From a virus: a stretch of DNA of 29,131 nt. The translations under genes were made by a program, and so were the position numbers. Within the stretch, counting starts at the first letter, position 1; every line of letters starts with the position of its first letter. The notes beneath the pieces were generated by a model. That model saw only the letters and a list, made by a program, of their open reading frames with translations, was not told the DNA's origin and did not search any database. Of this stretch, positions 287 to 28,944 are shown piece by piece. The stretch covers positions 1 to 29,131 of the IMG/VR virus record IMGVR_UViG_3300046517_000200, one strand, 5' to 3'.

Positions 287-463
287 ATGAAACCTGAACC
301 AAAAATGATTCTTCAATTCATTGAACCCTTTCGTAAGGTTCCACCTTATGATAAATTTCGGAATCATGAGAATCAATCAATCGCAATCCTTTTTAATATC
401 ATGGAAAGTAAATTCCTAAGAGAAGGATTGCAAGCATACATTACAGCATCTAAAACAAAGTAA
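287..463 (+). CDS. Small protein (58 aa) related to the C-terminal part of the 134-aa protein at 600-1004
   Basis: This 58-residue frame aligns without gaps to residues about 77-127 of the protein at 600-1004. Shared positions include FIxP, R, a Pro near residue 20, an IL pair, and FLxEGLxxY near the end, about 15 identities in 50. That makes it a short paralogue or the remnant of a duplicated gene. It starts at ATG 287, right behind the 15-codon leader ORF, with only a weak GTAGG upstream, so coupled translation is likely. Its TAA stop (461-463) lies inside the first strand of the hammerhead ribozyme, so any ribozyme cleavage happens in the 3' untranslated part of its message. Function unknown. 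Confidence 0.55.
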   Translation: MKPEPKMILQFIEPFRKVPPYDKFRNHENQSIAILFNIMESKFLREGLQAYITASKTK

Positions 464-517
464 GACGAAACGGCCTACGGGCCGTCCATGAGTAATGCTC
501 ATGCTGATGAGTCTAAC
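460..517 (+). ncRNA. Type II hammerhead ribozyme
   Basis: All core elements are present in the circular order of a type II hammerhead (open at stem II). Stem II is GTAAGAC (460-466) with GTCTAAC (511-517), with one A-A mismatch. The GAAA core is at 467-470. Stem III is CGGCC (471-475), loop TACG, GGCCG (480-484), with A470 pairing U485. The cleavage triplet is GUC (484-486). Stem I is CATGAG (487-492), loop TAATG, CTCATG (498-503), with no mismatch. CUGAUGA is at 504-510. Known hammerheads cleave 3' of the H in NUH, here after C486. The element overlaps the stop codon of the preceding ORF and precedes the gene at 600. No core position deviates from consensus, so I expect an active ribozyme. 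Confidence 0.93.
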
Positions 518-3828: not shown

Positions 3829-5522
3829 TGACCGCGTTAACTGAAACCTGCAAAACCTGTAATAAGCCAATAAAGCATATTCAATCTGAAATACCTTCAG
3901 GTGCATTTATTACTTATGTTTGGGGTTGTGGGCATATTGAAACTAAGATTAAACCTAAAGTAACGGAAGTAAAGTTTAATGTTTTCAGTTCAACAGACTC
4001 ACCCATAACTATAAAAGTACCGGAACCAACACATGAAGAACTATATAATGATTTAGAAAAATGGGTTAACGAGGGTGGCAGCTTCAAGAAAACCCCTGAA
4101 ATGATTGCGGATGAGGAAAGACTCAAAAGATGGCAGCATGAAAGTTTCAATGCAATTAATGGTTCCGCGAAGCGGGCTTATGAACATCAGTTTGAATGTG
4201 TAGAGTTTGGAGAAGCCGCACACGGATGTTTTTTAAATGCCGACGACGTTGGAGTAGGAAAAACAATCGAGACAGCAATATTAATTAAAAGAAATCTCGC
4301 AGCATTTAAATCAGTATTGATTCTGGTTCCAAACAGTATAGTTTTCCAGTGGGTAGATGAAATTAGAACATGGACTGGAATGAAAATTAATACTGTAATG
4401 CCAGTAATGAAACGAGAGCATTTAATGCCGGGATTTGATATTTATGTAATGTCCCGTGACTTGCTAGGCCGTAAAGGTGTTTTAGATTTAGTAGCAAAAC
4501 TAAAGATTAAATGTGTCGTAATAGATGAGATTCATGATTTTAAAGATACTGAATCCCTAAGAACAAAGGCACTCTATAAACTTATTAAAGATAATGACAT
4601 TAAGTTTAAACTGCCAATCGGCGGGACGTGGATTAAGAATAGATTTAATGAGGCTTTCGTTCCACTAAACTTAGTAGATCCTTTACATTGGCCGAATCAA
4701 GCAGCAATAGATAAGTTTAGCTACGGCGACAGATTAAATCCTTATCGTGAAGATGAGTTTAAAAAGATTACAAAAAATACAATAATTAGGCGCGAGAAAC
4801 ACGACGTTCTAAAAAATCTTCCGCCACTTTCACGAGACTTTCAACTTATTGAAATAGACGACGAGGGAATTAAAGATTCTTATAATCACCAATTAGGATT
4901 ATATGAAAGTTTCTGTAATCATAATGATCCTAGAATCCAAAGTCAGCAACTTTTAGGATGGTTAGCTAGATTAAGAGCAATAACTGGAATGGCTAAAACA
5001 CCCTATGCTGTAAAGTGGGTTAAAGAATTTCTTGAGGCTAGTGAAGATTCGATAGTAATATCAATTCAACATCACGATGTTCTAGATTTACTTGTAAATG
5101 TATTTAAAGCTAATAATCTAGACCCTTTAAGTTTATCAGGACGAGACGACGCTTATGCAAAACGTAGGATAGTAGCTGAGTTTAATAATAAACGTAATGT
5201 TCCATTGATTATGAATGGACTCGCCGGTGGCGTAGGATTAGATGGTTTACAATCATGCGCCAATGCTTTAATTCTTGAAAGACAATGGAATAGTGCATTA
5301 GAAGAACAATTTGAAGGAAGATTACATAGAAATGGACAATTAAGAGCCGTAACAGCAACTTATCCATTAGCAAAAGGTACAATAGATGAATTTTTCCACG
5401 ATAAAGTATTTAATAAACGTAATATTCTTGCAAGTGTAGGAATAGGTAGTTTTGATGATGGTTTAAACAGTCTACAAACATTAAAGGAATTTGCTGAATT
5501 TGTAGCATCAAATAAAATTTAA
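3828..5522 (+). CDS. SNF2/RapA-type DNA-dependent ATPase (helicase superfamily 2)
   Basis: Two RecA-like lobes with SF2 motifs: Walker A DDVGVGKT at residues 139-146, motif II DEIH at 233-236, motif V region GGVGLDGLQ near 467-475, and motif VI QFEGRLHRNGQ at 494-504. The last is the hallmark QxxGRxxRxGQ of the SNF2 family. A short N-terminal extension carries C8-x2-C11 and C34-G-H36, a zinc-finger-like pair not usual in phage SNF2 proteins. I take ATG 3828, coupled by TAATG to the gene before, because the in-frame ATG at 3819 sits only two bases from AAAGGA. Such proteins translocate on duplex DNA and are common in phage replication blocks, probably remodelling replication or recombination intermediates. 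The specific role here is inferred. Confidence 0.93.
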   Translation: MTALTETCKTCNKPIKHIQSEIPSGAFITYVWGCGHIETKIKPKVTEVKFNVFSSTDSPITIKVPEPTHEELYNDLEKWVNEGGSFKKTPEMIADEERLKRWQHESFNAINGSAKRAYEHQFECVEFGEAAHGCFLNADDVGVGKTIETAILIKRNLAAFKSVLILVPNSIVFQWVDEIRTWTGMKINTVMPVMKREHLMPGFDIYVMSRDLLGRKGVLDLVAKLKIKCVVIDEIHDFKDTESLRTKALYKLIKDNDIKFKLPIGGTWIKNRFNEAFVPLNLVDPLHWPNQAAIDKFSYGDRLNPYREDEFKKITKNTIIRREKHDVLKNLPPLSRDFQLIEIDDEGIKDSYNHQLGLYESFCNHNDPRIQSQQLLGWLARLRAITGMAKTPYAVKWVKEFLEASEDSIVISIQHHDVLDLLVNVFKANNLDPLSLSGRDDAYAKRRIVAEFNNKRNVPLIMNGLAGGVGLDGLQSCANALILERQWNSALEEQFEGRLHRNGQLRAVTATYPLAKGTIDEFFHDKVFNKRNILASVGIGSFDDGLNSLQTLKEFAEFVASNKI

Positions 5523-12761: not shown

Positions 12762-12846
12762 GCTTCGCTGGCGGAACTGGTATACGCTACGGACTTAAAA
12801 TCCGTCGAGATTTAATCTCATAAGGGTTCGACTCCCTTGCGAAGCA
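12762..12846 (+). tRNA. tRNA-Leu, anticodon UAA
   Basis: A complete class II cloverleaf. Acceptor stem GCTTCGC/GCGAAGC, discriminator A12846, D arm with GCG/CGC and AACTGGTA loop. Anticodon arm ACGGA-CTTAAAA-TCCGT with anticodon TAA, extra arm GAGATTTAATCTC, T arm AAGGG-TTCGACT-CCCTT. CCA is not encoded, so host nucleotidyltransferase must add it. UUA is a very frequent leucine codon in this AT-rich genome, so the tRNA likely supports phage translation. Confidence 0.97.
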
Positions 12847-13305: not shown

Positions 13306-13423
13306 AAACTAACGGGTTCCCGTAAGACTTAGGTTACATGCTTGAAAGAGTAATTCCTTCGCGCGGGATTAAATTAGAGTAAGCGACAACTTTAAGCCCA
13401 CTATTTAAACTTAAGGAGAAGAG
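13306..13423 (+). promoter_or_regulatory. Structured intergenic segment before the 198-aa gene
   Basis: ACGG/CCGT (13312-13315/13320-13323) and TAATTCC/GGGATTA (13351-13357/13365-13371, one G-U) form small hairpins. TTAAG (13392-13396) can pair with CTTAA (13410-13414), next to the ribosome site AAGGAG. Bases 13397-13415 are an exact 19-base repeat of 18550-18568. No T-run is present, so no terminator is claimed; translational control is possible. Confidence 0.4.
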
Positions 13424-14020
13424 ATGAAGAAGAAAGTAAATACTGTTCATATCAATGAGATGGAGAGACTTAATAAATTTAATAGTGATTTGATAGAAGA
13501 AAATAATAGACTACATAATGCTTTAACAGCTTCTATTGATAGAGAAGCTAAGGATACTGGGCCTCAAGATGCTAAGGTAGAACTAACTCCACAATATCAT
13601 TTCAATGATAACTTTAAAACTGGTGCTATTGGAGGGTATAAAGAACAAGAAACTACATTCTCAGGAGGCGCGAAGCGTAAAGTAATCTCAGAATGTTCTC
13701 ATTTAATTTGTCCTGAACTTATGAGAAGGGTAGGACTTATTTATACTGAGGGTCTTAATTCTTACCCAGATAAAAGTGTAACTCATTATGCACAAATTTC
13801 TACAGCACGTTTTGGATTACCACTTGACAATCTTCTCCGCCACCTTGATAATCATTATTTACGTTATCGTCATGGTGATACTAGTGAAGATAACCTCGCG
13901 AAAATAGCTTGGGCTATTCAACAGATAATGCACCAAGAAGATTCAAGTTGCCAACACTATAATATGTTTCTTAAACATGAGGATAGGACAACTAAACCTA
14001 ATACACTTTATGTTGGATAA
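13424..14020 (+). CDS. DUF5664-like dATP/dGTP diphosphohydrolase family protein
   Basis: An N-terminal coiled segment (residues 1-40) precedes a helical core with FSGGAKRKV, ICPELMRRVGLIYTEGLN, LPLDNLLRHLDNHYLRYRHGD and DNLAKIAWAIQQIMHQE. The LLRHLxxH...GD...D-x-LAxxxW pattern is what I associate with the phage DUF5664 family, renamed dATP/dGTP diphosphohydrolase. Such enzymes remove purine dNTPs and in some phages belong to the 2-aminoadenine pathway. No PurZ gene is in this window. Good ribosome site AAGGAG. Moderate confidence in the family, low in the exact substrate. Confidence 0.7.
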   Translation: MKKKVNTVHINEMERLNKFNSDLIEENNRLHNALTASIDREAKDTGPQDAKVELTPQYHFNDNFKTGAIGGYKEQETTFSGGAKRKVISECSHLICPELMRRVGLIYTEGLNSYPDKSVTHYAQISTARFGLPLDNLLRHLDNHYLRYRHGDTSEDNLAKIAWAIQQIMHQEDSSCQHYNMFLKHEDRTTKPNTLYVG

Positions 14021-14216
14021 AAAAGTAGAAAAATGTGGACTCTCGCGGCCACAAGTAAATGTTACTGTGTTAAGTGCAGAAAATAAAGTGGGCCATAATG
14101 GTTCTCTAATTCATGTATGTTCATTGGATAGGGGGCACACTAAACTTGAAAAGAATGCACTAGAATACTGTAGATGTGAATGTGGATATCAGTGGAGGAA
14201 GTTTCATAATGAGTGA
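14010..14216 (+). CDS. Small zinc-ribbon-like protein (68 aa)
   Basis: HVCSLDRGH and, near the C-terminus, YCRCECGYQW give clustered Cys/His. I place the start at ATG 14010, inside the end of the previous gene; an earlier ATG at 13977 is possible and neither has a clear ribosome site. Overlaps the next gene by eight bases. Function unknown. Confidence 0.5.
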   Translation: MLDKKVEKCGLSRPQVNVTVLSAENKVGHNGSLIHVCSLDRGHTKLEKNALEYCRCECGYQWRKFHNE

Positions 14217-14367
14217 AACACATGAGGGAATGTTAGATAAACAAGATAATGATCCAGAAAAGGATAGGTTTAATACAGGAATTTGGGGTCTATGTGAAAG
14301 CTGTGATTACTATACACAACTATGCTTAAATCATGAACATTGTTCTAAATGTTGTAAATGTGAATAA
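14209..14367 (+). CDS. Tiny Cys-rich protein (52 aa)
   Basis: GGAGG lies about ten bases ahead of ATG 14209. The C-terminal half holds seven Cys and two His (CESCDYY, CLNHEHCSKCCKCE), a density suggesting one or two zinc ions or a redox role. A longer frame from TTG/ATG upstream would overlap its neighbour more. Unknown function. Confidence 0.5.
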   Translation: MSETHEGMLDKQDNDPEKDRFNTGIWGLCESCDYYTQLCLNHEHCSKCCKCE

Positions 14368-14368
14368 G

Positions 14369-14542
14369 ATGAATAAAAAAGAATACTCTAATCTCCAAGA
14401 TGGTGATATAGTAGAAAATGTTCAAACTAAACGTAAGTATGTAGTGCGTGTAGAAGATACAGAAACTATACCTAAACTTAGATTAGTAAACTATCAGAAT
14501 GAGTTTAAAGTAATAAGTAAGGTAGTTAGAGAAGAACTATGA
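14369..14542 (+). CDS. Small beta-rich protein (57 aa), unknown
   Basis: Starts one base after the previous stop and overlaps the polymerase start by ATGA. Repeating short strands (DGDIVENVQTKRKYVVRV, KLRLVNYQNEFKVIS) suggest a small beta-barrel. Role unknown; translational coupling to the polymerase is evident. Confidence 0.55.
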   Translation: MNKKEYSNLQDGDIVENVQTKRKYVVRVEDTETIPKLRLVNYQNEFKVISKVVREEL

Positions 14543-17088
14543 TCGAGACAGAAAAAGTTCTAGTTGCTTCCCACGGCTATTCCGATGCAGATATATTTTT
14601 CCTAGGCGGCCATCCTTTAAAAGATGATATTTTAAATGGGATTGCACTTGTAGGATCAATCGAAGGCACTTTAAATTCCTACTTAAGGCCACACGGTATA
14701 AACATTAAGAACTGTTACCGTAGTACCTTCATTAAGGAGAAACTTGCTTACTCAGGTACTAACATTAAACTCTTAAAAGAAGCACTAAATAATGTAGACT
14801 TAAAATATTATGAAGAAGTTTTACTTCAAGAATTACGTGACATTAATCCGACTGTTATTATTCCTCTCGACGATATTGCTCTTGGCGTTGTCTATCCATA
14901 TATCAGTACTATATCTAAACCCAGAAGTAGGAAGTATTGGGTCTATTGTTATCGCGGGAGTGTTTTACCTCTTAGGGCTGATTGGATACTTAGTCTTGGA
15001 TCACAAATTAAAGTTATACCAATAGTAGGCCCGCAACTTTTATACTCCGATGCCACGGCAAGATCCTATACACAATTAGACTTTCAGAAAATAGCAAAAG
15101 AACGACAAAATAGAGATATATCTTCTGAAGGAATAGTTTGGGTATGCCGCCGGTATGAAGAATTTGATAGATTTTTAGACCGTCAATGGAAGAAAGAACC
15201 TAAAAGGGTTACGTTTGATATAGAGACTTACGGTGGTTTAATAACCTGTATTAGTTTTTGCTTTGATGGTTGGGAAGCAGTATCAGTCCCAATGGGAGAC
15301 TATACCTTAGATAAGTATGAACGAGTCTTATTCTGGAAACGTATAGCTAAGATACTTTCTTCAAGTCTTGAGAAGAATAATCAGAATATTAAGTATGACT
15401 GGATTATCCTTGAACGGCATGGATTCTATCTAAATAATGTAACATCTGACTCCATGTTAAAGGGTGCATTAATCTATCCAGAGTTACCTAAGGGACTAGA
15501 TTTCTATACTAGTATCTATACTAACATCCCATACTATAAAGATGAAGGAAAAGAATTTGACCCAAAAAAGCACGATAAAGACAGATTATACTTATATAAC
15601 GCAAAAGATAGCCTTGCGGCCCACATCGTTTCAGTTGAAGAAGATAAAGAGTTGGAAGAAGACCCATATGCAAAACAGTTATATAATAACGAGATTGCTC
15701 CATCAATTCTTATATACAAGAACCTAGACAATACAGGACTTTTAGTAGATAATGAAGTTAAACATAAGAAGCTCGAAAAGTATCATAGACTTTATGATAA
15801 TAATGAATTTATCTTAAGGTCACTTGTAGGCAATAAAGAGTTTAATGCAAGATCCCCTAAACAAGTAGGAAGTTTAATCTATGACCAACTTGGATTTCCC
15901 CTTAGATATAAAACTAACGAATTTGGAGTTAAATCCTTTAAGACCGATAAAGATACGCTTGATGACTTACTTATACACCACGGAGATGACCAAAAAACTG
16001 GTAAAATTGGATATAATATATTATCCAGAATTATCGTATGTAGAAAACTTGCAAAAGTGGTTGAGTATCTCAATACACCATTACATCCAGATAATACTTT
16101 TAGAGGATCTTATAATCTGTCTGGTACAGAAACAGGACGAAGTTCTTGCTCTAAAACTATTGATGAAAGATTTAGAACTTCCGATGATCCTAACTCTACA
16201 AAGGCTACCAAAAGGTTGGGTAGAAGTCTCCAAACAATAAGTAAACATGGCTTTGCTATAGATGAGGAAATATTTAATGATTTCGATGACGCGGAAATTG
16301 CTTCGGATATGCGAGAAATCTTTATCCCACCGCATAACTTTATTTTTATTGAAGGTGACGGAGCAGGAGCAGAAGCGAGGGTTGTTTTTGTTCTTGCTGA
16401 AGACTATGAAAACTTGGCTAATATGGATCTTAAACCAAAGATTCACGCAAAAACTGCTGCGGCGATCTTTAACATGGATGCAAATTTAATTACGTCTAAA
16501 GGTCCCGCGATCCCTAAAGTAGGAATAACTTATTATGACCTTGGAAAAAAAGTGAGACACGCGGGTAACTATCTTATGGGCGCATTTAGAATGGCTCAAA
16601 TGACACATTTACCTTTAGGATTCTGTATAGATGCACTAGAAAAATTTCATGCTAGGGAACCGCAACTTAAGGACGTGTTCCATAAAGAAATAGAAGATAT
16701 TATAAGAAGGACTCGTGTCTTAAGAACTCCTTGGGGCCGCAGCAGGACATTTTATGCTAAATATGATGAATCCTTGCTTAAAGAAGCAATAGCATATATA
16801 CCTCAAAGTACAATAAGTGATCTAACTAAATTTACTATGTGGAGAATAGCAGACCAACTTCCAGGATACATGACGGAATACAAATTTAACTCAGAACAAC
16901 ACGACTCAATACTAGCAACAGTACACAAAGACTTAAAAGAAAAATACTTAGAAACATTCAAAAGAATTTACGAACGACCTATAAACTTTTTAAATTGTAG
17001 CTTAAGTAGGGATTTCGAATTAGTTATTCCTACAGAACTATTCATTGGCGAAGCCAACTGGATGAATATGGTAGAAGTTAAAATATGA
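14539..17088 (+). CDS. Family A DNA polymerase with N-terminal uracil-DNA-glycosylase-like domain
   Basis: Residues about 17-190 resemble a family 4/5-type UDG fold: FFLGGHPLKDD, GIALVGSIEGTLNSYLRPHGI, then VIPIVGPQLLYSD where active enzymes have an HPS motif. Here His is absent, so the domain may be inactive. The 3'-5' exonuclease follows: motif I DIET (D227, E229), motif II IKYDW, motif III YNAKD. Polymerase motifs: A EGDGAGAEAR (D607), B KKVRHAGNYLMG (670-681), C QHDS (H788, D789). The variant motif A and KKxxHxxNYxM motif B are typical of phage polymerases rather than bacterial Pol I. At 849 aa it is a full replicative enzyme, coupled by ATGA to the gene before. The polymerase is certain, the UDG-like domain likely. 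Confidence 0.95.
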   Translation: MIETEKVLVASHGYSDADIFFLGGHPLKDDILNGIALVGSIEGTLNSYLRPHGINIKNCYRSTFIKEKLAYSGTNIKLLKEALNNVDLKYYEEVLLQELRDINPTVIIPLDDIALGVVYPYISTISKPRSRKYWVYCYRGSVLPLRADWILSLGSQIKVIPIVGPQLLYSDATARSYTQLDFQKIAKERQNRDISSEGIVWVCRRYEEFDRFLDRQWKKEPKRVTFDIETYGGLITCISFCFDGWEAVSVPMGDYTLDKYERVLFWKRIAKILSSSLEKNNQNIKYDWIILERHGFYLNNVTSDSMLKGALIYPELPKGLDFYTSIYTNIPYYKDEGKEFDPKKHDKDRLYLYNAKDSLAAHIVSVEEDKELEEDPYAKQLYNNEIAPSILIYKNLDNTGLLVDNEVKHKKLEKYHRLYDNNEFILRSLVGNKEFNARSPKQVGSLIYDQLGFPLRYKTNEFGVKSFKTDKDTLDDLLIHHGDDQKTGKIGYNILSRIIVCRKLAKVVEYLNTPLHPDNTFRGSYNLSGTETGRSSCSKTIDERFRTSDDPNSTKATKRLGRSLQTISKHGFAIDEEIFNDFDDAEIASDMREIFIPPHNFIFIEGDGAGAEARVVFVLAEDYENLANMDLKPKIHAKTAAAIFNMDANLITSKGPAIPKVGITYYDLGKKVRHAGNYLMGAFRMAQMTHLPLGFCIDALEKFHAREPQLKDVFHKEIEDIIRRTRVLRTPWGRSRTFYAKYDESLLKEAIAYIPQSTISDLTKFTMWRIADQLPGYMTEYKFNSEQHDSILATVHKDLKEKYLETFKRIYERPINFLNCSLSRDFELVIPTELFIGEANWMNMVEVKI

Positions 17089-17101
17089 AAGAAAATAAAG
17101 A

Positions 17102-18319
17102 ATGCCGTCAGATTATGTTAGCCTATTCATTGACTATACTCGTGAATACGAGAGTCCTACAAGTTTTTGGAAATGGGCTGCTTATAGTACTATTGCTTCT
17201 TCTTTAAGATTTAATGTATTTCTACAATATAAAAGAAGTAAGATATATCCTAATACATATACCGTACTCTTAGCAGATTCAGCTAAATACCGTAAAGGCG
17301 AGCCAATGAAAGTGTCAAACGCACTTTTAACGGAGACTAATACAACTAAGACTTTTACAGGGACAGCCTCGGTTCAAGGTATACTTGATAAATTATCTCA
17401 AGACTTACCTATAAAAGGAAAAGGTATCACCTTGCGGGGCGGCGCGTGCTTAATTCTTGCAGAAGAATTATCATCATTCTTTGTGGACGATCCTAGACTT
17501 ATTCCGATGTTAACAAGAATGTATGATTTCTCGGAGACATTTCCTTATGACCTCAGATCAGGAACGATTATTATTAAAAACCTATGTGTCAGTATGCTCG
17601 CAGGAAGCAATGAAACATTACTTAGAGAAGTATACACTTCAAGAGCTAACTACGGTGGGTTATTACGAAGAACTCTCCTTATCAAACCAGACGAATTTAG
17701 ACCACCTAATTCATTATTTAATCCAGATAAGATTGTAGATGAACTTAAAGATACAGAGCATTGGAATGAATTAGTCAAAGTACTTTTACAAATTAGTAAA
17801 ATGGCCGGTAGGGTAACTTTAGATGATTGTTCGGCTAGATTTTTTACAACATGGTATGAAGACCTATATAAAAACTATGAAAAGTATGGTAGTAAAACTG
17901 GGGTAGTAGAAGGGATTCATACTCTAATATTAAAGATAGCTATGATATTAGCTGTCTCAGATTCAAGGATGACAATAGAATTAAAGGACATAGAACGGTC
18001 TATACTTGAGGTTACAGCATTAAGACCGAATTATGAAATATATGCTATGGGAAGTGGAAGATCAGAAAAAGCCGGCAGCTCTGCTTTTATATTTAACTTA
18101 TTTTGGCAGGCAAAAGAGAATACGTTAAGTAAACAGGAGATCCTATTTCAATATTGGAATGAGGTTCAAGCTGAGGAATTAGACAGTATTATTGATACTT
18201 TTATTCAAGCTAATTTACTTATGATGGTTCATAAAGGAAATAAAATTTACTTTCAAATGACTCAAAAGGGTATAGATGCTATGACGGCGGCATTAAATAA
18301 TAAAGGTATTAAACCATGA
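17102..18319 (+). CDS. DUF3987-like phage helicase/primase-associated ATPase
   Basis: A RecA-like ATPase core: P-loop-like LLADSAKYRKGEPM (residues 56-69), Walker B-like LILAEELSSFF (116-126), a sensor strand VSMLAGSNE (162-170), and GGLLRRTLL (184-192) that fits an arginine finger. Its order matches DUF3987 proteins, which sit next to polymerases in many phages and are thought to unwind DNA. The last 90 residues (LFWQAKENTLSKQEILFQYW) look like a winged-helix tail. It follows the polymerase by 13 bases, so the two likely form the replisome core. Confidence 0.8.
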   Translation: MPSDYVSLFIDYTREYESPTSFWKWAAYSTIASSLRFNVFLQYKRSKIYPNTYTVLLADSAKYRKGEPMKVSNALLTETNTTKTFTGTASVQGILDKLSQDLPIKGKGITLRGGACLILAEELSSFFVDDPRLIPMLTRMYDFSETFPYDLRSGTIIIKNLCVSMLAGSNETLLREVYTSRANYGGLLRRTLLIKPDEFRPPNSLFNPDKIVDELKDTEHWNELVKVLLQISKMAGRVTLDDCSARFFTTWYEDLYKNYEKYGSKTGVVEGIHTLILKIAMILAVSDSRMTIELKDIERSILEVTALRPNYEIYAMGSGRSEKAGSSAFIFNLFWQAKENTLSKQEILFQYWNEVQAEELDSIIDTFIQANLLMMVHKGNKIYFQMTQKGIDAMTAALNNKGIKP

Positions 18320-18328
18320 GGGCTAAAA

Positions 18329-18514
18329 ATGAGATTTAAATGTGTTTGTTTAATATGTGGAGAGTTTATATGGGTTCGAGGAGAATATGAGTCAGATACG
18401 AATGCTACTACATTGAATGAAAATGATAGTGCATGGGATGAGGCATGTGAACATATTAAGGATGGTAGCGATTATAGTATTATTGATTCTGAACCAATAG
18501 ATGATGAATATTAA
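18329..18514 (+). CDS. Small acidic protein with a C-x2-C motif (61 aa)
   Basis: Begins MRFKCVCLICGEFIWVRG, with three Cys in a C-x-C-x2-C arrangement, then becomes strongly acidic (IDSEPIDDEY at the end). Could be a half zinc ribbon. A GAGGG sits nine bases upstream. Function unknown. Confidence 0.6.
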   Translation: MRFKCVCLICGEFIWVRGEYESDTNATTLNENDSAWDEACEHIKDGSDYSIIDSEPIDDEY

Positions 18515-18517
18515 ATT

Positions 18518-18640
18518 ATGAAAATACAGTATAGAGGATACTACTATATCCCACTATTTAAACTTAAGTTTTGTTATCATAGTGGTCACATATTTATCTT
18601 ATTAGGTTACTGGAGATTTACTTTCTATTTAGGAGATTAA
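18518..18640 (+). CDS. Candidate small aromatic protein (40 aa)
   Basis: Frame from ATG 18518, three bases after the previous stop, to TAA 18640. Rich in Tyr, Phe, Leu and Ile; the stretch HIFILLGYWRFTFYLG could insert in a membrane. The ribosome site is weak. Bases 18550-18568 inside it are an exact repeat of 13397-13415, which raises doubt that it is an ordinary gene. Confidence 0.35.
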   Translation: MKIQYRGYYYIPLFKLKFCYHSGHIFILLGYWRFTFYLGD

Positions 18641-18641
18641 A

Positions 18642-18716
18642 ATGTTAATATATTTCATTGCGTTCTTCTTAGTATGGTTATGGTCTGGTCGATACCCTAA
18701 ACATAGACATAAGTAA
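18642..18716 (+). CDS. Candidate membrane micro-protein (24 aa)
   Basis: A strong ribosome site TTAGGAGA precedes ATG 18642. The product has a hydrophobic stretch (MLIYFIAFFLVWLWSG) and a basic His/Arg/Lys tail. The stop codon TAA (18714-18716) abuts the stop of the opposite-strand gene. As the last + strand gene it could be a lysis or inner-membrane effector. Function unproven. Confidence 0.45.
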   Translation: MLIYFIAFFLVWLWSGRYPKHRHK

Positions 18717-18722
18717 TTACTT
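18711..18722. repeat. 12-bp perfect palindrome at the convergent junction
   Basis: AAGTAATTACTT is identical to its reverse complement and contains the TAA stops of both convergent genes. No stem-loop plus T-run on either strand is found around it, so neither block has an obvious intrinsic terminator here. The palindrome may be a protein site, or a by-product of two abutting TAA stops. Confidence 0.6.
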
Positions 18723-20993
18723 AACTGGTCTGATTTTACCATCAGTACCAACTACTGCTTCTTGTTTAGATCCATCTTTAAGAGTCAAAGTAATATGCCC
18801 ACCAGACATACCTTGGACTAAAAGCCTGGAAGCAGCCTGAAAACTCATACCTAGCGGCCGGCCATGTAATAAACCTAATAAAATTGGAGCATAATTATCG
18901 TTAGACATGATTCTTGCTACTACACCCATTCCTATATAACCAGAGACTATAGCCCCACGAGTTAACATAGCTGAGTCTGAATGTTCTGCTAATAATTCTC
19001 CTGCTAAACCTAATGTGGCTGTACCAAACCTAAACTTAATATAGTTATTATTATTATTTAACTGGTTAGTAGTCTTCTGAACAGCATCAACAAAATCGTC
19101 CCATCGGCGAGCTTTAGCACTGTTTAAAGTACCTAATAGTTTAATTCCTTCAGTTGACTGTCTAAACTTATTATAGTCAGTAGCATATTGATCTCCATTT
19201 AATACCCCCACATCACGATTTTCTGGACTATAGGGTGTCCAGTTATCCTGCTCTAATTTCTTAAAGAAATAACCTTGAAGATCTTTCCTACCATTAGTAG
19301 AAGTTACAGTCTGACCATTAACTGTAGCCTCCCCGGACTCTAAGAACCTTCCCATCTTTTTATAATCCCCAAGGATGGAATCCATTACTTCTCTTGGAGC
19401 ATTTTCAGTATTTAATAATGTGTCAGCAGATTTACCAGTTTCTCCTATTGGTCCCCAAAGTTCATGTCTTTTTTGAACTATAGCCTTGCTTTGTTGCCAA
19501 GATTGATTTATACTTGCAAGTTGTGGAGCTTGTGATGGATCATTCGACCATTTAGGAATACTCTCATCAATATCTTTATTTAAAGAATTTGAAATCCTTC
19601 TAAATCTTCCATCTACTGCATTAATGTTTTCAGTTAAATGGCCATAACCTAAAGCATCAATAGCCTGTTTAGCATCCCACGCTTCTTTAAATCCTAATGG
19701 ATTAGATGAAATTAAATTACCTTGAGGATCAAATTTTGCATCAATCGCTTTAAAAATATCATTTATAGTTCTAGAAACAGGAGTATTTACATCTGGAGTA
19801 ATAATACCATTAGGGTACATTTCACTACGAATTTTTAATAGTTCAGGTAATGTTCTATTTAGATCTATAGGACCATTAACTACTTTTCCAGCAACAACAC
19901 TTGAAGCATTTACAGTTTGAGTTCCTGTTTGTATTCCTCCAGACATTACTGGTACTTGAATAGGAGTTTGAACAACAGTTCCAGGAAGTTGTTTAGGATA
20001 TAAGTCAGCACCAGCTACAGCATTTTGTGCTTCTTTATTTGAAGTTGCTACAAACTTATCATAACTAGCCCTATTTTCTGCCATCATTAATTCAGCCCTA
20101 GCATCATTACTAATAGAAGATACTGGGCCGCTGACATTAGGAATAGTTAAATCTGCAATCAACTCATTAGATCTTATCTTTGCACGTTTAGTACTATCAG
20201 CAATAGATGCTTCCTTGGCACCTCGGCCAAAATAATCTTCTATTAAAGAAGAATGCTTTGGACTAGCTTCATATTGAGAATAAGTAGGATTTAGATTTTT
20301 TAATTCATCAGTTACTCCTGGAACTCGATCTATTAAATCTCCAGGAGCTAATGCTTTTCCAGCCACGCCAATAACTCTACCAGCTAATTCATTCAATCCT
20401 GTTTGTTCTATTCCAGCATATAAAGGATTATGTGGAAAAGTACTTGATCCAGTTCCTTCCCCAGAAGCATGCCTTAAGTATTGATCTACAGTTGCCATAA
20501 CTGCTGAACCGGCTAAAGTAGCTGGTAAAGTTACTTCAGGAAATGCTCCAATAGCTAGGGCACCAGCACCATCAGAAATAATATCGCGAGCAAGAGGCGC
20601 AACTTCTGATTGACTTTCTGGAGTTTTATTAATTAAACTTTGAATAAGTGGATGATTATAAGTATCCGCAGGTAATAATCTCTGTAGGGCTTCAGCAACT
20701 AAACCTTTTGCATTTGTATCTTGACTAGAAATACCTGTAGCGTGACCTGGAAGCGAGCCAGTATAAACTGGATTTGTAGTATCTTTTGCAGTTAAATCAA
20801 TTGTTGGCTTTATAGTAGGATTTGTAACATCTTGAGAAGTTAAGTTAACCGCCGGAGTTGTAACTCTAGCCTTAATCTTTTCATAGGCCGCGGCTGCTGC
20901 TTTTCCTATGTCTTCTTTAGAAGCATTATCTGGACCAGTAATATTAAATTTAGTTCCATCAGGAGCTATAATTGGATATGTTTTTTCTGCCAT
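18717..20993 (-). CDS. Putative internal virion (DNA ejection) protein, 758 aa
   Basis: The last and largest of three consecutive genes with the composition of ejection proteins. Residues about 45-95 carry a repeated LT(S/A)(Q/K)D(V/T)TNP element, probably disordered. Residues 140-170 (GALAIGAFPEVTLPATLAGS) are Ala/Gly-rich and hydrophobic. The C-terminal 110 residues contain another hydrophobic part (GLAGELLAEHSD, VSGYIGMGVVARIM). Long helical stretches lie between. This resembles short-tailed phage internal proteins that leave the head with DNA and cross the cell envelope. No lytic transglycosylase motif is seen. The start has no good ribosome site. The role is inferred from composition and position. 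Confidence 0.6.
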   Translation of the reverse strand: MAEKTYPIIAPDGTKFNITGPDNASKEDIGKAAAAAYEKIKARVTTPAVNLTSQDVTNPTIKPTIDLTAKDTTNPVYTGSLPGHATGISSQDTNAKGLVAEALQRLLPADTYNHPLIQSLINKTPESQSEVAPLARDIISDGAGALAIGAFPEVTLPATLAGSAVMATVDQYLRHASGEGTGSSTFPHNPLYAGIEQTGLNELAGRVIGVAGKALAPGDLIDRVPGVTDELKNLNPTYSQYEASPKHSSLIEDYFGRGAKEASIADSTKRAKIRSNELIADLTIPNVSGPVSSISNDARAELMMAENRASYDKFVATSNKEAQNAVAGADLYPKQLPGTVVQTPIQVPVMSGGIQTGTQTVNASSVVAGKVVNGPIDLNRTLPELLKIRSEMYPNGIITPDVNTPVSRTINDIFKAIDAKFDPQGNLISSNPLGFKEAWDAKQAIDALGYGHLTENINAVDGRFRRISNSLNKDIDESIPKWSNDPSQAPQLASINQSWQQSKAIVQKRHELWGPIGETGKSADTLLNTENAPREVMDSILGDYKKMGRFLESGEATVNGQTVTSTNGRKDLQGYFFKKLEQDNWTPYSPENRDVGVLNGDQYATDYNKFRQSTEGIKLLGTLNSAKARRWDDFVDAVQKTTNQLNNNNNYIKFRFGTATLGLAGELLAEHSDSAMLTRGAIVSGYIGMGVVARIMSNDNYAPILLGLLHGRPLGMSFQAASRLLVQGMSGGHITLTLKDGSKQEAVVGTDGKIRPVK

Positions 20994-20998
20994 TTCAT

Positions 20999-22291
20999 TT
21001 ACTGTCCTATTCTAAATCCACCGGGCAGCGTATTTTCATCAGTAGTAGGTTGAGTAGTTCTAGTTTCAGGCACAGCTTCTTTTCTATTAGATTTACTATT
21101 TGAGAGAACAGTTTCTAATCTAGCTTGCCTAACTGTAGGAATAAGTTTATCAAATATAGCTTTAGCTCTATCAGGGGTTAAAGACCTTTCAATCCCACCA
21201 GCATAAGATTTTACCCACTTTTCTTCTTGTGGAGAAACAACAGACCCTACCTTAGCATTTTCCTTCATTGCAACAAATATTTTACCTATATCAGGTCTAA
21301 TATTTTCTACAACTGGATCAGCTTGACCAGCAATATTTTGTAATCTATCTGCAATACTACCAAATCCTGCCCCAAGAAAATACTTCTGATAACCTGTTTG
21401 ACCATCAGAATAAGTTTTTTCTAACGCATCCTTAACTGTAGTAGCTAAATCTTCTACAGTACTGTATTGTTTAAATTCATCCTGAGCCTTAGCCGGCATC
21501 TTAGCCCCAGGAAAAGCATCATTCCAAGTAGCCCCAGGAGGTAACTTTAATTTAGCTCTAGTATCAGGATCAAGTGTTAATAAACCCCAAGTTTCTGGAA
21601 GGTTCGCGGCCTTAGCACCTTCTTTTTGTAACTCAAAGTTACCTTTTATATTAGCCAAATTAAGATCATGTTCATATTTAAGTTGTTCCATAGTCTTATC
21701 ATGAGCATTCTTAATATTTAACTGACGAACTTCAGCACTATCCTTACCTTGGGCTAAACTTTTAGCGGTTTCTTCTTGAAGATTACTTTCGAATAATTTT
21801 AATTGCTTTTCATAATCTATATTCTGCTCTAATGCTGGTTTAGCTTCAGTGGCTTTTAATGTTCCAGTTTCCTGAGCCGCTGATCTAGGTGCCCTAAATT
21901 GAATAGTTTCACCTGTAGCGGGATTAGTAGCAGTAATTCTAGTTCCAAAAACATTAGGACTCATCTCATATTGATCTTGAGAAGTAATATTATACCCTGA
22001 TGGAACATTCCCAGTTTGTTCAGCCCCTTGAATTAATTGTTGTCTAGCTGACTGTTGCTGTAAATCTAATTGAGCTTGTTGAAGTTTATGAGTAGCAAGT
22101 TGATTAGCTTTATCATTAGCTAAAGATTCTTCAAACTGTTGCTTTTGAGCATCAATCTGAGCTTGTTTCTGCTCATTCTCAACTTGAGTCTGTTCTTGTT
22201 TCTTTTTTAATTCTTCAGCAGTAGTAGCTTCTTGCTTACCTAATGCGTAGGCACTTATAATACTATTTGATACATCTAATTTAACTGGCAT
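20999..22291 (-). CDS. Putative internal virion protein with long coiled coil, 430 aa
   Basis: Residues 20-95 are an uninterrupted Gln/Lys/Glu/Ala-rich coiled coil (EELKKKQEQTQVENEQKQ...), a second helical stretch covers about 150-225, and a helical C-terminal domain follows. A good ribosome site AGGAG precedes the ATG, and five bases separate its stop from the next start. The Gln-rich coiled coil and neighbourhood fit a T7-like or similar ejection protein; a scaffold is less likely because it sits downstream of tail genes. No enzymatic motif is seen. Confidence 0.55.
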   Translation of the reverse strand: MPVKLDVSNSIISAYALGKQEATTAEELKKKQEQTQVENEQKQAQIDAQKQQFEESLANDKANQLATHKLQQAQLDLQQQSARQQLIQGAEQTGNVPSGYNITSQDQYEMSPNVFGTRITATNPATGETIQFRAPRSAAQETGTLKATEAKPALEQNIDYEKQLKLFESNLQEETAKSLAQGKDSAEVRQLNIKNAHDKTMEQLKYEHDLNLANIKGNFELQKEGAKAANLPETWGLLTLDPDTRAKLKLPPGATWNDAFPGAKMPAKAQDEFKQYSTVEDLATTVKDALEKTYSDGQTGYQKYFLGAGFGSIADRLQNIAGQADPVVENIRPDIGKIFVAMKENAKVGSVVSPQEEKWVKSYAGGIERSLTPDRAKAIFDKLIPTVRQARLETVLSNSKSNRKEAVPETRTTQPTTDENTLPGGFRIGQ

Positions 22292-22300
22292 CTTAAACTC

Positions 22301-23002
22301 CTAATATCCAGGATTATAAACAGGAGTACGATTTATATTAAATGTAGAAGGAAGAATAAATGGTGGAGTAGTATTCTTATTATATAAAGTTCCAGGATTA
22401 AATGAAGGAGTTTTATATACATTAGGTACAGTTGAAGGTAATGTAGAAGCATTTGGTTTTTTAAATGCCCCTTGACCTAAGAAATAAGCTAACGTAGCTG
22501 CCGCATTAGATAAACCGCCACCTACAGCATTATTAGGAGTAGTTCCTGTTCCTACAACATTCTTAGGCGTAGCAGTAAATAAACTTTGGCCGGTCTGGAG
22601 AGCATTAGTCTCTAATTGATTCTGAAGCATAGGAATCTGTTGATGTAGTTTAACTATATCCCCATACCTTTGTGAGTCTACACTATTTTCAGCATTTCCT
22701 AAAGCATCACCAGTTATTCCTCGCAAGGCCGCATTTTCTTGAACATTCTGTAACTGTAATGCTCTAGTTTTATTTATATCTGAAACTTGTCCAGCTTCGT
22801 AACCAGTTAAATCAGTTCCAGCACTTAATTTTGCTTGCTGTTCCATTAGTTGTTTAAGTAGTAACTGTTGTTCTGGAGTTAAGTTTGTATTTTGAGTCTG
22901 GGTCGTAGTTTCTTTACGATTTCCCAAAGCTCCGCCGGCCGCAGATAAACCTACAGCTAAAGCTGCTGGATTACTATATAACGATTTAAAATCAAACGGC
23001 AT
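22301..23002 (-). CDS. Putative internal virion protein, 233 aa
   Basis: Starts with a hydrophobic Ala/Gly stretch (AALAVGLSAAGGALG), followed by a Gln-rich helical middle (LTPEQQLLLKQLMEQQAKL) and an Asn/Thr/Pro-rich low-complexity tail. AAAGGA lies ahead of the ATG. The layout is common in small proteins at the head of podovirus ejection clusters. Assigned by composition and position only. Confidence 0.5.
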   Translation of the reverse strand: MPFDFKSLYSNPAALAVGLSAAGGALGNRKETTTQTQNTNLTPEQQLLLKQLMEQQAKLSAGTDLTGYEAGQVSDINKTRALQLQNVQENAALRGITGDALGNAENSVDSQRYGDIVKLHQQIPMLQNQLETNALQTGQSLFTATPKNVVGTGTTPNNAVGGGLSNAAATLAYFLGQGAFKKPNASTLPSTVPNVYKTPSFNPGTLYNKNTTPPFILPSTFNINRTPVYNPGY

Positions 23003-23006
23003 TTCT

Positions 23007-23222
23007 TTATCCTTTCACTTCATCATCAACGAAACAATATTTCCATTGCCCAGCAGCAAAAGTAACAACTGTGGTTTCTACTTTGAGTTCATTCATTCTA
23101 TAGATATAAAGTTCATTAGACATGTTTAAATGTCTATCTATCATACGCACTGTACTATGGAAAGCATTTTCAAATTCAAGTTTCGTTTCTTTCTTATCAT
23201 TTAAAACTACAGTTAATTTCAT
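23007..23222 (-). CDS. Small protein (71 aa) in the virion operon, unknown
   Basis: Compact alpha/beta sequence (MKLTVVLNDKKETKLEFENA, then WKYCFVDDEVKG at the end). A good AGAGG ribosome site is present. It lies between the tail fibre and the internal proteins, separated by four and eight bases, so it is co-expressed. Could be a minor virion component or chaperone. Confidence 0.55.
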   Translation of the reverse strand: MKLTVVLNDKKETKLEFENAFHSTVRMIDRHLNMSNELYIYRMNELKVETTVVTFAAGQWKYCFVDDEVKG

Positions 23223-23230
23223 AAAACCTC

Positions 23231-24388
23231 TTAAAGTCGAACATATGGAATAAGTTGAAAAGCTAATGGACTACCATCATTTGAAATAGTTAAACTAGAT
23301 CCAGAATGAGTATGATCTACACTATCTACACCTGAAGCAGCCGGGCTTCCAGTAAAAGTAGCAGCTAAAGTTAAATCTACATCACCACCTACTGCATCAT
23401 CTGTAGTATCTTCAAAAGAATGTGTATGTGTTGCATCTTCTGTTCCTGTATTACTTGAACCACTAATACTTGCTGAAAATCCATGTGTATGTGAATCTGA
23501 TGCTACACTTGCAGAGCCTTCTAATCTTGGAGTAGTTCCACTTGGACCTCCTGTAGTTCCTGAAACTGAAAGTCCACTAACATCTACAGAATGTCCATGA
23601 GGGGCACTTTCTACACCAGTACTAGAATGGTAAGTATGACTATGAGTTAAACTAGGTAAATGAACTGTTCCACCTACAGTTCCAGTAGATGTAGTAGTAT
23701 GAGTATGTTTAACTGATTCATTTCCTGTATTCCCAGAAATAGTAGGAGCATTAGCCACTACAGGAGTAGTAGTAGCCCCATACTTTAAAAATCTTCCTCT
23801 AACATCATTAGGAGTAAATCCAGTAACTACAGAAGCATTATCTGTAGAATATGTGTAGGTACTTCCATCAACTATTCCCCATCCGGGTTTTGTTGGAGCA
23901 ACCCAGAATCCTTCTACATATAAATTTGCTCCACCTAATCTTTTCCATGTAATTAAATTCCATCTATAGTACCAATCAAAATCAGTAGCATAGATCATAT
24001 ATCCATTATCATATAATACACTAGGACTAGGTTTAGTATCTGGAGATAATGTTACATCTTGTATTCCATCATAATAATACCAGTGACCCCCACGAGCAAT
24101 ATATGTTACATTTCTATCCGTAGCAAAATAAGTTGTACCTACAACTACATTTGAAGGTTGCGGCCGTTGTGCTAAAGTCCCAACTAAAGTACCGTTTAAT
24201 TGCCTTTTAGTTACATAGTCCCCCGGATTAATAGCGTCTTTAGCTTTTCCTATACGCCGGCCATGTAAATTTTGTTTCTGAGTAAGTAAACTATTTACTT
24301 GCCTAAGTAAATAATCTTGCTCTGGACCTATAGATTGTCCAGGATCATAACCTAATACACTTAAATCGGGAAGTTCATAACTAACCAT
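23231..24388 (-). CDS. Tail fibre / collar-type protein with HxH metal motifs, 385 aa
   Basis: An N-terminal helical part (residues 1-75), then a WYYRW segment and GFWVAPTKPGWGIVDGSTYTY leading into DVRGRFLKYGA, as in phage tail-collar/tail-fibre tips. The C-terminal half has at least six H-x-H pairs (KHTHT, HSHTYH, HGHS, SHTHG, THTHS, DHTHSG) within Gly/Ser/Thr-rich strands. In T4 gp37 such HxH motifs bind iron along a trimeric fibre; the same is expected here. It probably recognises the host surface. Its ATG overlaps the stop of the 827-aa gene by one base (TAATG), so they are coupled. Confidence 0.8.
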   Translation of the reverse strand: MVSYELPDLSVLGYDPGQSIGPEQDYLLRQVNSLLTQKQNLHGRRIGKAKDAINPGDYVTKRQLNGTLVGTLAQRPQPSNVVVGTTYFATDRNVTYIARGGHWYYYDGIQDVTLSPDTKPSPSVLYDNGYMIYATDFDWYYRWNLITWKRLGGANLYVEGFWVAPTKPGWGIVDGSTYTYSTDNASVVTGFTPNDVRGRFLKYGATTTPVVANAPTISGNTGNESVKHTHTTTSTGTVGGTVHLPSLTHSHTYHSSTGVESAPHGHSVDVSGLSVSGTTGGPSGTTPRLEGSASVASDSHTHGFSASISGSSNTGTEDATHTHSFEDTTDDAVGGDVDLTLAATFTGSPAASGVDSVDHTHSGSSLTISNDGSPLAFQLIPYVRL

Positions 24389-26871
24389 TAGATAGCTCCC
24401 TTACCATCTAAGAAAACCCACTTTTCTTCAGTATCTAATCCAGACTTAGCAATTTGAATCCTGGTGGCAATATGTCTAAATCTCCCAGCACCTATAGGAC
24501 CAATATCTATTTTAAGTAGACTGCCTGCAATAGTTTTAGGTAGTGGGATACTACAGATTTTCTCTCCGTCTGTGGCAATATCTATTGAACTTGAAATAAG
24601 ACTAATTCCGTCTAAATAGATAATATAAGGAAGTGAAGTTACTGCAAGTGTATCTATTCGTATTTCAAGTGCTTTAATCTTACCATAGCGTAATATTTCT
24701 ATCTCACCTATAGTATTATATACTTTAGGTCCCGGCTGTTGATAAACTACATCGGGTGGTAATACCTCATAAAACTCAAAAGGTAAACTAGCACTTGATT
24801 GTAAGGTAGCACTAAAATCAGTACCAAAACAATCACTATCTTGAAAGAAAGTATATGCTACAGCTGATTTTCGTGTAGTATTAAATATACTTGATGAATG
24901 TGCTACCCCATCTACTATAGGAGTAAATGTAATATCATTTCCTAAAGTATCAATAATAAAATTAATCGTACGAATCCTCTTTTTATTTATAGAATCCAAA
25001 CCTAAATTAAGTAACCTTAAAAATGTAAGTTGTGGTGGTCGTTTATCATAAGATAAACTTAATTCTTTAAATCTTAAATCTGTTGTTTGACCTGAGACTC
25101 TAAATTGTATATCTCTACAAGGAGTTATTGCTGATGCACCGGATATAGATTGAATATCAAACCTAGATCTAAATTGATAGTATCCTACTCCAGTGTCATT
25201 TACTTTAAATGCGGTAGTACTAATGTCATTTGCTTCATATCCAGTATGTCCATCAACACCGATACCTATTACAACACCAAATAAACTTGAACCTGTGCCT
25301 CCTGCTATACCTAAAGTATAAAGATCTTTTCTAACGGTAGGTAAATTAAAATCAAAACAGCCAGATAATATTTGTACAGTTTGTCTAGTTTGAGCACCGT
25401 CATCTAACCTACGAGTTATATCATCATATACTTTAATAAATTTATCAGTATCATCAAAACCTAAAAGACTTCCATTCTCATGGGCTACATACATTTTAGG
25501 TGAAAGATTTACATAGGCTACTCTCCAATATTTTCTTTGAAAGTCATAAACTTCAGTATGTATTGAAGTAAATGATCCACTAGCTAAAGGTGCTCCAACA
25601 GGGACAATACAAAATAATTTATTCTTTACTATAGTACACGAATACCTTGTTGCCCCAGTCAAATCAATAGTTACTGCTCCACATTCAAATGTAGCTTCTC
25701 CTTTATATAAAAGATCTGTATTAGGAAAACAAAGATTAACTATATTACCTGAAGTATTACATGCAACCCATCCAGATTTAGACATGTAAACTGCTGAGTT
25801 TTGATATAAAGCAACATCTATACCTATAGGTGGGTCTGATACACCTAAAGGATCTAAACTTACATCAAGGAAACCATCAGGTAATTGAACATATGTTCCT
25901 GAAAGAATATAGACATCTCGATCAGTTCCAACTAATACTGTATTCTTAGCTACTTTAATAGCCCATTTAAATGTTTCAGAGCCGCTGGCTCCAGTAACAT
26001 TCATAGTTGTTCTTGAGTCTGTAGAATCTGGAGAATTAATATCTCCAAAATATATTTGCTTAGCAGTAAAATAAATCATCCTTCCGTAAACAGGACCAAC
26101 ACAAGAAATAATTGCATCTGGTATCCCTGTAGAATTAACTGGAAGTAAGAAATCATTTAAAGTTATACCTAATGCTAAAGCATCATAATCAGACATATTA
26201 TCTGTAAATGCTCCAAAACTAGTAACTCTAGCAATTCTATACCATGTATCTAAATTTACACCTCTCCGGAATATCCATGCTTCATTAGCTGTAGAGCTAG
26301 GAACACTAGGATTTTGAGGAGTAACAGTTACTACTTGAAGACTTGGAGAAACTGTATTAATAGCTGATCTTACACTTTTAGCTCTATAAGATCCATTAAC
26401 TAATACATTAACTTGGCAGTATTCATAATCTCCAGTTAAAATTCCAGCAGCACCAACTACTACTGTAGGTCCAGCACTAGGACCAATTATACCTAAATCT
26501 GTTGCAGTAGTCCCATCATCTTTAAATCTTTTATTTCCTGAGAAACCAAAAACATAATTATATGCTGCATTAAAACATGCTCTAGTAGCACTACCGCCAG
26601 TTTCAATTTGTGTATTCCCTCTAAAGACTAATCCTGTAGTATCGGCTGAATAAATGTATGGAGTGCCATTTATATATTTTTGATAGATTGTATGCAATGT
26701 ATTAGTAAACACAGATAGTTGTCTAGTTGTTCCCCCAGACATTTGTATAGCACCATTCAGATCTAGCTCTACATTTTCCATCCTTAATAGGCCATTTTTA
26801 CGCCCATTTAAAGCATCATCAGATGGACACCATCCTGCACTAAAATCATTCCAATTAAATACTTCAGGCAT
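24388..26871 (-). CDS. Large tail/virion structural protein, 827 aa (tail-tube or stabilisation type)
   Basis: Begins with EVFNWNDFSAGWCPSDDALNG...LRMENVELDLNGAI, a start pattern I associate with large tail-tube or connector-stabilising proteins of short-tailed phages. The rest is beta-rich with many Thr, Ser, Gly and Asp, no coiled coil, no membrane span and no enzymatic motif. It stands between the beta-repeat protein and the tail fibre and overlaps both neighbours. The exact role cannot be fixed from sequence alone; a distal tail or fibre-anchoring part is possible. Confidence 0.65.
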   Translation of the reverse strand: MPEVFNWNDFSAGWCPSDDALNGRKNGLLRMENVELDLNGAIQMSGGTTRQLSVFTNTLHTIYQKYINGTPYIYSADTTGLVFRGNTQIETGGSATRACFNAAYNYVFGFSGNKRFKDDGTTATDLGIIGPSAGPTVVVGAAGILTGDYEYCQVNVLVNGSYRAKSVRSAINTVSPSLQVVTVTPQNPSVPSSTANEAWIFRRGVNLDTWYRIARVTSFGAFTDNMSDYDALALGITLNDFLLPVNSTGIPDAIISCVGPVYGRMIYFTAKQIYFGDINSPDSTDSRTTMNVTGASGSETFKWAIKVAKNTVLVGTDRDVYILSGTYVQLPDGFLDVSLDPLGVSDPPIGIDVALYQNSAVYMSKSGWVACNTSGNIVNLCFPNTDLLYKGEATFECGAVTIDLTGATRYSCTIVKNKLFCIVPVGAPLASGSFTSIHTEVYDFQRKYWRVAYVNLSPKMYVAHENGSLLGFDDTDKFIKVYDDITRRLDDGAQTRQTVQILSGCFDFNLPTVRKDLYTLGIAGGTGSSLFGVVIGIGVDGHTGYEANDISTTAFKVNDTGVGYYQFRSRFDIQSISGASAITPCRDIQFRVSGQTTDLRFKELSLSYDKRPPQLTFLRLLNLGLDSINKKRIRTINFIIDTLGNDITFTPIVDGVAHSSSIFNTTRKSAVAYTFFQDSDCFGTDFSATLQSSASLPFEFYEVLPPDVVYQQPGPKVYNTIGEIEILRYGKIKALEIRIDTLAVTSLPYIIYLDGISLISSSIDIATDGEKICSIPLPKTIAGSLLKIDIGPIGAGRFRHIATRIQIAKSGLDTEEKWVFLDGKGAI

Positions 26872-28039
26872 TGTCGTTTCCGTATCGCCTCACGTAAGAT
26901 TCAAAATCATTATCTGTTGAAGTCTCACTTAATCCAATAGTTTCAGTAGCTAATCTTTCAGTAGTATCTAAAGCATCTCGGTCATTACAGTACCTACGAA
27001 AATAATTTTCTGTTTCTGTTTGATCTGGATGTTCTCCAGTATCCTCAGAAATTACTTTTGCTGCACTATAATTTAAAGTTACTGTTCCTCCGAGAATATC
27101 ATAGTTTGTTGATCCCGAAGCTATGACATATGTTCGCCTAAATCCTACAGCAGTCCCAGTAATAACATAAGAACCACCACTAACTGAAAGTGTATATCCT
27201 TTACTTAAAGTTGCACTTGAACCATTAATTGAATAAGTGCCACTTGCAACAGATAACTTTCTAGTTGCCTTTAATCCAGCAGCAGTACCTGAGATTGTAT
27301 ATGTTCCTGAAGAAGCAGAAACTTTACGGCCTACAGCTAAAGTCGCCGCCGTCCCACTAATTGTATAAGTCCCACCACTTGCAGTTAAAGTATAAGCTGT
27401 AGTTGATTCTTTAAATGCAACAGTACTTCCCCAAAACTTATTACCTGCTGTCATATCCCATGCAGGAGTATATGTTCCAGTAGAAGAAGCTAATAAAGAA
27501 CAAACAGCATCACCAGAAGAAATTGTACCGCCTGAAGTAAAAGCATTTCCAGAATGAGGATTTGCTGTTATATTTCCAACCATTCCAAATGCAACAATTG
27601 CTGCAACTGTCGCAGTTGTTGTAACAGCAGCACCATTCTGGTTTGCAGAACAAGAAGCAGTATTAGTTACATTATGAACGTCAACAACAGGATTAGTAAA
27701 TCCAGAGATCTCAATAAATAGAATTGATTTAAAGTATGATCCTGTATTACGACTAAATGTAGCTGTAATAGTCGTTTTTCCTGATGTAGAAACAGGTAAA
27801 TACCAAACATCACTTCTTACAGTAGTTCCAGATAAATTATCCATTGACGGAACTTGTGTAAATGCGTTAGTTCCATCTGATACTCCAGTAATACTACCTA
27901 CATTTCCTGGAGTTGCATCAAAGTTATCAGGACAAACTACTAATAAGTTTCCAGTCCCAGTAGCACTAACTGTAACTGATACAGTTGTATTAGTATCAGT
28001 TACATTTGCTCCATGAGCCTGTACAAAAGCTAAAGCCAT
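26864..28039 (-). CDS. Beta-repeat virion protein, 391 aa
   Basis: Residues 1-210 form a beta-sandwich-like domain. Residues about 217-325 hold four to five repeats of 18-19 residues of the form GGTYTISGTAATLxxxRK, a short repeat that is frequent in phage surface proteins. The C-terminus has two similar blocks, NYFRRYCNDRD and SYVRRYGNDNA. The start has no clear ribosome site (TTAATTAAATG). Overlaps the 827-aa gene by eight bases. Likely a decoration or fibre-associated protein; function inferred. Confidence 0.7.
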   Translation of the reverse strand: MALAFVQAHGANVTDTNTTVSVTVSATGTGNLLVVCPDNFDATPGNVGSITGVSDGTNAFTQVPSMDNLSGTTVRSDVWYLPVSTSGKTTITATFSRNTGSYFKSILFIEISGFTNPVVDVHNVTNTASCSANQNGAAVTTTATVAAIVAFGMVGNITANPHSGNAFTSGGTISSGDAVCSLLASSTGTYTPAWDMTAGNKFWGSTVAFKESTTAYTLTASGGTYTISGTAATLAVGRKVSASSGTYTISGTAAGLKATRKLSVASGTYSINGSSATLSKGYTLSVSGGSYVITGTAVGFRRTYVIASGSTNYDILGGTVTLNYSAAKVISEDTGEHPDQTETENYFRRYCNDRDALDTTERLATETIGLSETSTDNDFESYVRRYGNDNA

Positions 28040-28043
28040 TTAA

Positions 28044-28481: not shown

Positions 28482-28490
28482 TTAAATCTC

Positions 28491-28943: not shown

Positions 28944-28944
28944 C

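Follow-up and report, generated by a model that had tools for sequence, protein, structure and literature searches.

Perreault et al. described type II hammerhead ribozymes from bacteria, archaea and phages in 2011 (PMC3088659; Rfam RF02276). In that study, clustered bacterial and prophage hammerheads cleaved in vitro, one triple arrangement flanking ardA showed cleavage in E. coli, and message processing by prophage hammerheads and by clusters flanking single genes was proposed (PMC3088659). A related case is HHphage of the haloviruses HF1 and HF2, where the 5′ end of a message lies near the cleavage site (PMC3088659). The DNA analysed here, hereafter the window, is the whole of a 29,131-nt stretch of the viral record IMGVR_UViG_3300046517_000200 (positions 1 to 29,131). 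Its ribozyme resembles HHphage in lying upstream of a phage gene (an early one in HF1/HF2), but HHphage has a variant core, belongs to an archaeal virus and precedes a helicase gene. With the published type II ribozymes, the window shares the permutation, the core, the predicted cleavage after C17 and the intergenic phage setting (PMC3088659). The class, the phage setting and the processing idea have therefore been known since 2011, and the window ribozyme adds one example to them.

A complete type II hammerhead at a phage gene boundary

The minimal ribozyme occupies positions 463-514 of the plus strand. With both hairpins (III and I) closed and only stem II open, it has the type II order, in which GAAA is followed along the RNA by hairpin III, the cleavage site, hairpin I and CUGANGA. 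The 5′ strand of stem II (AGAC, 463-466) pairs with its 3′ strand (GUCU, 511-514), both covarying in relatives, and is followed by the core GAAA (467-470; G12, A13, A14 and A15.1), invariant across 40 aligned copies. Hairpin III (471-484) consists of five base pairs, CGGCC (471-475) with GGCCG (480-484), around a UACG tetraloop of the UNCG type (476-479), and is extended by the pair A470-U485 (15.1-16.1). G484-U485-C486 is the cleavage triplet, and the core sets the predicted cleavage site between C486 and C487 (C17 and 1.1). Hairpin I (487-503) is a perfect 6-bp stem, CAUGAG (487-492) with CUCAUG (498-503), bearing the loop UAAUG (493-497); both hairpins are defined by sequence, fold and covariation. 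The second core segment, CUGAUGA (504-510; C3 to A9), assigned from the sequence and the 40-copy alignment, leads to G511, which pairs with C466 (10.1-11.1), a pair invariant in the alignment, as is A470-U485.

An earlier, sequence-only reading of this DNA had announced a complete hammerhead of type II between phage genes, and on every testable point (core, stems and covariation in other phages) it was right. CUGAUGA, GAAA, the GUC triplet and the two core pairs are all present, stem I is perfect, and the minimum free energy (MFE) fold of 460-517 computed with RNAfold contains the same three stems (-21.1 kcal/mol, z = -3.85), with 0 of 200 shuffles folding as well. The span of 460-517 given by that reading does hold the ribozyme, the minimal element being slightly shorter.

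The ribozyme separates two plus-strand genes. The upstream gene (287-463) encodes 58 amino acids and ends with a TAA at 461-463, the last A of which is the first base of stem II, so that the ribozyme indeed begins inside the stop codon, as had been proposed. Upstream, in the same direction, lies a possible 15-codon leader ORF with an AGGAGA ribosome site (236-283). The downstream gene (600-1004, 134 amino acids) is followed by a strong intrinsic terminator with a 13-pair stem and a T run (1044-1076, which is 4445-4477 of locus L003), and this terminator closes a small transcription unit. A search upstream gave no good match to a promoter consensus, promoter-like sites being no commoner than in shuffles.

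The two proteins share 33% identity over 49 amino acids (E = 4e-9, for a single comparison), and the 58-aa gene matches only the C-terminal half of its neighbour and is therefore a partial duplicate. Both proteins match a small family with 27-34% identity; its members are single-copy in three distant relatives found via DNA polymerase. No hammerhead above noise was detected in the records of these three relatives, which may be incomplete and in which the neighbourhood of the homologue is present. Since the homologue is single-copy and no hammerhead accompanies it, the ribozyme and the duplicate were found, among the lineages compared, only in that of the window. The sequence-only reading had seen the novelty of the locus in its placement between paralogues; the neighbours are related, but this is the sole case in 161 gene pairs. 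Paralogous neighbours as a general rule were thus rejected, the only one of 161 testable ribozyme boundaries to show them belonging to the window's own lineage, and the arrangement is therefore probably incidental. The 134-aa protein had no Pfam or PHROG match, its single-sequence AlphaFold model (mean pLDDT 47) was too poor for a structure search, and no phage records similar to the region were found.

Covariation and a pseudoknot-free subclass

The permuted core pattern matches once in the window and in 0 of 100 dinucleotide shuffles. IMG/VR was scanned with a pattern requiring only the core and the adjoining stem II bases, the spacers being left free; since the pattern asks nothing of hairpins I and III, their formation is a genuine test. 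Both hairpins, with at least 4 bp each, were formed in 192 of the 296 distinct matches on the collected contigs, against 0.2 expected with shuffled spacers. Among the matches listed for the same core pattern, they were formed in 87 of 139 on viral contigs and in 1 of 122 in bacterial and archaeal genomes, both sets being samples.

Forty phage copies of equal length, including that of the window, were aligned without gaps. All 16 pairs form in every copy (640 of 640 pair cells are standard), a percentage that is partly built in because the rows were pre-filtered for pairing, the unfiltered test being the 192 of 296 given above. Thirteen of the 16 pairs show changes on both sides, with 206 cells so changed versus 61 in shuffles, and the covariation score reaches 0.843; shuffles give 0.159, and slid versions of the alignment no more than 0.124. 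The close relatives of the window are 99.98% identical over 5 kb of shared stretch and therefore offer no natural conservation test within its lineage; in other phages of the subclass, covariation is overwhelming. A covariance model built from the 40 copies, R1, in which the window copy is one row, gave 72.2 bits on the window (E ~1e-18), its match spanning 459-522 and being the sole one in the record. No type I or III hammerhead and no second hammerhead were found in the window or in the loci of the polymerase relatives.

The Rfam type II model proved less sensitive. RF02276 did match the window, but at 26.9 bits (E = 0.012, 2.4 kb against 4227 families), below its gathering score of 37. At this cut-off, it matched none of 33 copies of the subclass to which the window belongs (14 loci, 128 kb), and the low score of the window therefore reflects a limit of the Rfam model. 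This subclass is characterized by a 4-bp stem II, a 6-bp stem I, a UNNNG-like loop and the lack of the pseudoknot of the published consensus. In the window, loop I and the 3′ tail could form only 3 pairs, where at least 4 were required to call a pseudoknot. Across the copies in which stem II has 4 bp and hairpin I 17 nt, a pseudoknot of at least 4 bp was possible in 6 of 121, versus a shuffled mean of 8.9; with the whole subclass at chance level, a pseudoknot in the window was dropped. Where stem II is short and hairpin I longer, it could form in 57 of 63 copies, against 17 in shuffles, and it is these copies that match the published type II consensus, unlike the window subclass. The window thus departs from that consensus in its missing pseudoknot, its 4-bp stem II and its score under the Rfam cut-off. 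Many hammerheads without a pseudoknot were nevertheless reported in 2011 (PMC3088659), and the subclass is therefore not unknown.

Several positions outside the core vary little or not at all among the 40 copies, namely A462, U493 and the pair G492-C498, which closes stem I, and the window has them all. A462, which flanks stem II on its 5′ side, is invariant. As judged from sequence, conservation of this A and of the U points to a contact of the loop-loop type instead of a pseudoknot, A462 and U493 being candidates for a tertiary contact between stems I and II. The type III hammerhead of sTRSV has a 4-bp stem II and a 6-bp stem I, lengths at which loops I and II come together. The window has the same stem proportions in a different permutation, its stem II being open, and the flanks of this stem would replace loop II. 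Stem III is closed by a GNRA or UNCG tetraloop in 64 of the 121 subclass copies.

Ribozymes at stop codons of phage operons

The core-only IMG/VR scans yielded 248 non-redundant hammerheads of type II. In 154 of them (62%), the end of the upstream stop codon lies between -2 and +5 nt from the ribozyme start, compared to 2.3% at random positions of the same contigs, and fusion to the stop codon is therefore the norm in this family. Offsets of +1 (59 copies), 0 (36) and -2 (36) are the most frequent. The downstream start codon, with its ribosome site, usually lies 10-40 nt past the ribozyme (median 27 nt); at 85 nt, the gap in the window is longer than usual. The genes that flank the ribozymes differ among phages. 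The window ribozyme is hence not unusual among phages, where the family is common and poorly annotated.

The window record carries a single hammerhead, and other phages carry series of them, often with one copy per gene boundary: 9 copies in 3300048837_000975, 8 in 3300047160_000799 and 6 in 3300005444_000023. The longest observed, at 13400-20400 of IMGVR_UViG_3300036832_000364 (locus L356), comprises 11 type II hammerheads within about 5 kb of an operon, with one at nearly every gene boundary and most abutting stop codons. Similar series were noted in loci L357 (8 copies), L358 and L359 (9 copies each).

A search of the open-access literature after 2011 found no report of phages processing their messages gene by gene at type II hammerheads, although this does not establish that none exists. 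As far as this literature shows, three things are new: the strict fusion to stop codons measured across many phages, the long series with ribozymes gene by gene, and a common subclass that lacks the pseudoknot and falls under the Rfam threshold. The survey outweighs the single ribozyme in this respect, since it shows a subclass that is common in phages and falls below the Rfam cut-off in every copy tested. These observations raise the question of whether compact pseudoknot-free hammerheads at stop codons form a widespread, largely unannotated phage system that punctuates operons (up to 11 copies in 5 kb), with RNA catalysis, rather than host RNases, yielding single-gene messages in some phages; we regard the chances for and against such a system as evenly balanced. 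The regular placement, by stop-codon fusion and, in some operons, at nearly all gene boundaries, makes message processing by phage ribozymes directly testable.

Proposed processing of the two-gene message

At the locus studied here, a complete ribozyme of conserved architecture sits at a gene boundary, as in many phages, within a small unit closed by a terminator. We consider it likely that this ribozyme cuts the two-gene transcript co-transcriptionally at the predicted site, C486/C487, to give two messages. This role is supported by the stop-codon placement, the multi-copy operons, the terminator and the precedent of cleavage by related ribozymes (PMC3088659). An active, compact, pseudoknot-free hammerhead would cut the nascent phage transcript between C486 and C487. 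The upstream message, encoding the 58-aa protein, would then end 23 nt past its stop codon, with the stable hairpin III and a 2′,3′-cyclic phosphate, and the downstream message, encoding the 134-aa protein and running on to the terminator, would start with a 5′-OH on hairpin I. The two messages would thus have defined hairpin ends and could differ in stability and translation. That hairpin III is stable is compatible with protection of the message end, though also with plain good folding. We infer that the site is transcribed, that cleavage takes place in the cell and that it affects the messages. The three distant relatives keep the downstream gene with no ribozyme found in their records, so in related phages that gene does not seem to need the ribozyme.

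The same placement could also reflect control linked to translation, a reading that we consider unlikely. A ribosome terminating on the upstream gene would cover the 5′ strand of stem II and GAAA, so that cutting would occur only when the upstream gene is unread or the ribosome has gone, which would couple the fate of the downstream message to translation upstream. The fusion of the stop codon to stem II here, its proximity in most copies and the offset peaks at +1, 0 and -2 are in agreement with such a link. However, tightly packed genes in phages account for such spacing as well, the ribozyme filling the gap between a stop codon and the next ribosome site.

Still less probable is a passive role for the ribozyme, as a mobile or selfish RNA motif or as a recent insertion, in which it cleaves itself without benefit to the phage. 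Its absence from the searched records of the three distant relatives, in which the downstream gene is single-copy, and the variation of neighbouring genes from phage to phage would suit this explanation. But a strict stop-codon placement in unrelated phages, with one copy per boundary, argues against it, as do copies that have diverged in sequence and yet remain structurally intact, a state that drift would not maintain.

A switch in the leader has very little to recommend it. Here, the 3′ strand of the ribozyme (504-513) would pair with codons 2-5 of the downstream gene, folding leading either to cleavage or to a hidden start region. The MFE fold of 487-640 does pair CUG.UGAGUC with GGCUCG.CAG, and the predicted probability of stem II drops from 0.83 to 0 once the transcript passes position 620. 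However, stem II is predicted with low probability in about two thirds of all copies, probably for want of tertiary contacts in the energy model, and the window therefore does not stand out. Pairing of the Shine-Dalgarno region is predicted at about 95% whether or not the ribozyme strand is included. With its support gone after the comparison across copies, this switch was dropped. Finally, that chance hairpins merely look like a hammerhead, as the RF02276 score under the gathering cut-off might hint, is next to impossible, and was rejected on the core shuffles (none of which matched even the core alone), the spacer shuffles (both hairpins expected in only 0.2 of 296 core matches) and the presence in the window of the conserved non-core positions A462, U493, G492 and C498.

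Other features were noted around this unit. Upstream of the first base of the window, non-coding positions 3140-3200 of L003 hold a minimal tRNA-like hairpin, with a 7-bp acceptor-like stem and a T-arm-like GATGG-TTCGATT-CCATC, that opens about 500 nt without long ORFs; neither ARAGORN nor Rfam gave a call for it. In the non-coding stretch past the terminator, a 26-nt repeat occurs four times around TTTAGAATCAnnnnCTTAC (1192-1432), together with a run of 22 T (1277-1298). Similar AAGTCCTTTAGAATC motifs are found in the distant polymerase relatives (loci L490 and L491) and upstream in L003, and the repeats may serve as an origin, as promoters or as binding sites. Positions 18717-29130 carry large genes on the minus strand, of up to 827 amino acids, with almost no PHROG match, and the phage family appears to be poorly represented in references. 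The phage also encodes its own tRNA-Leu (TAA), at 12762-12846.
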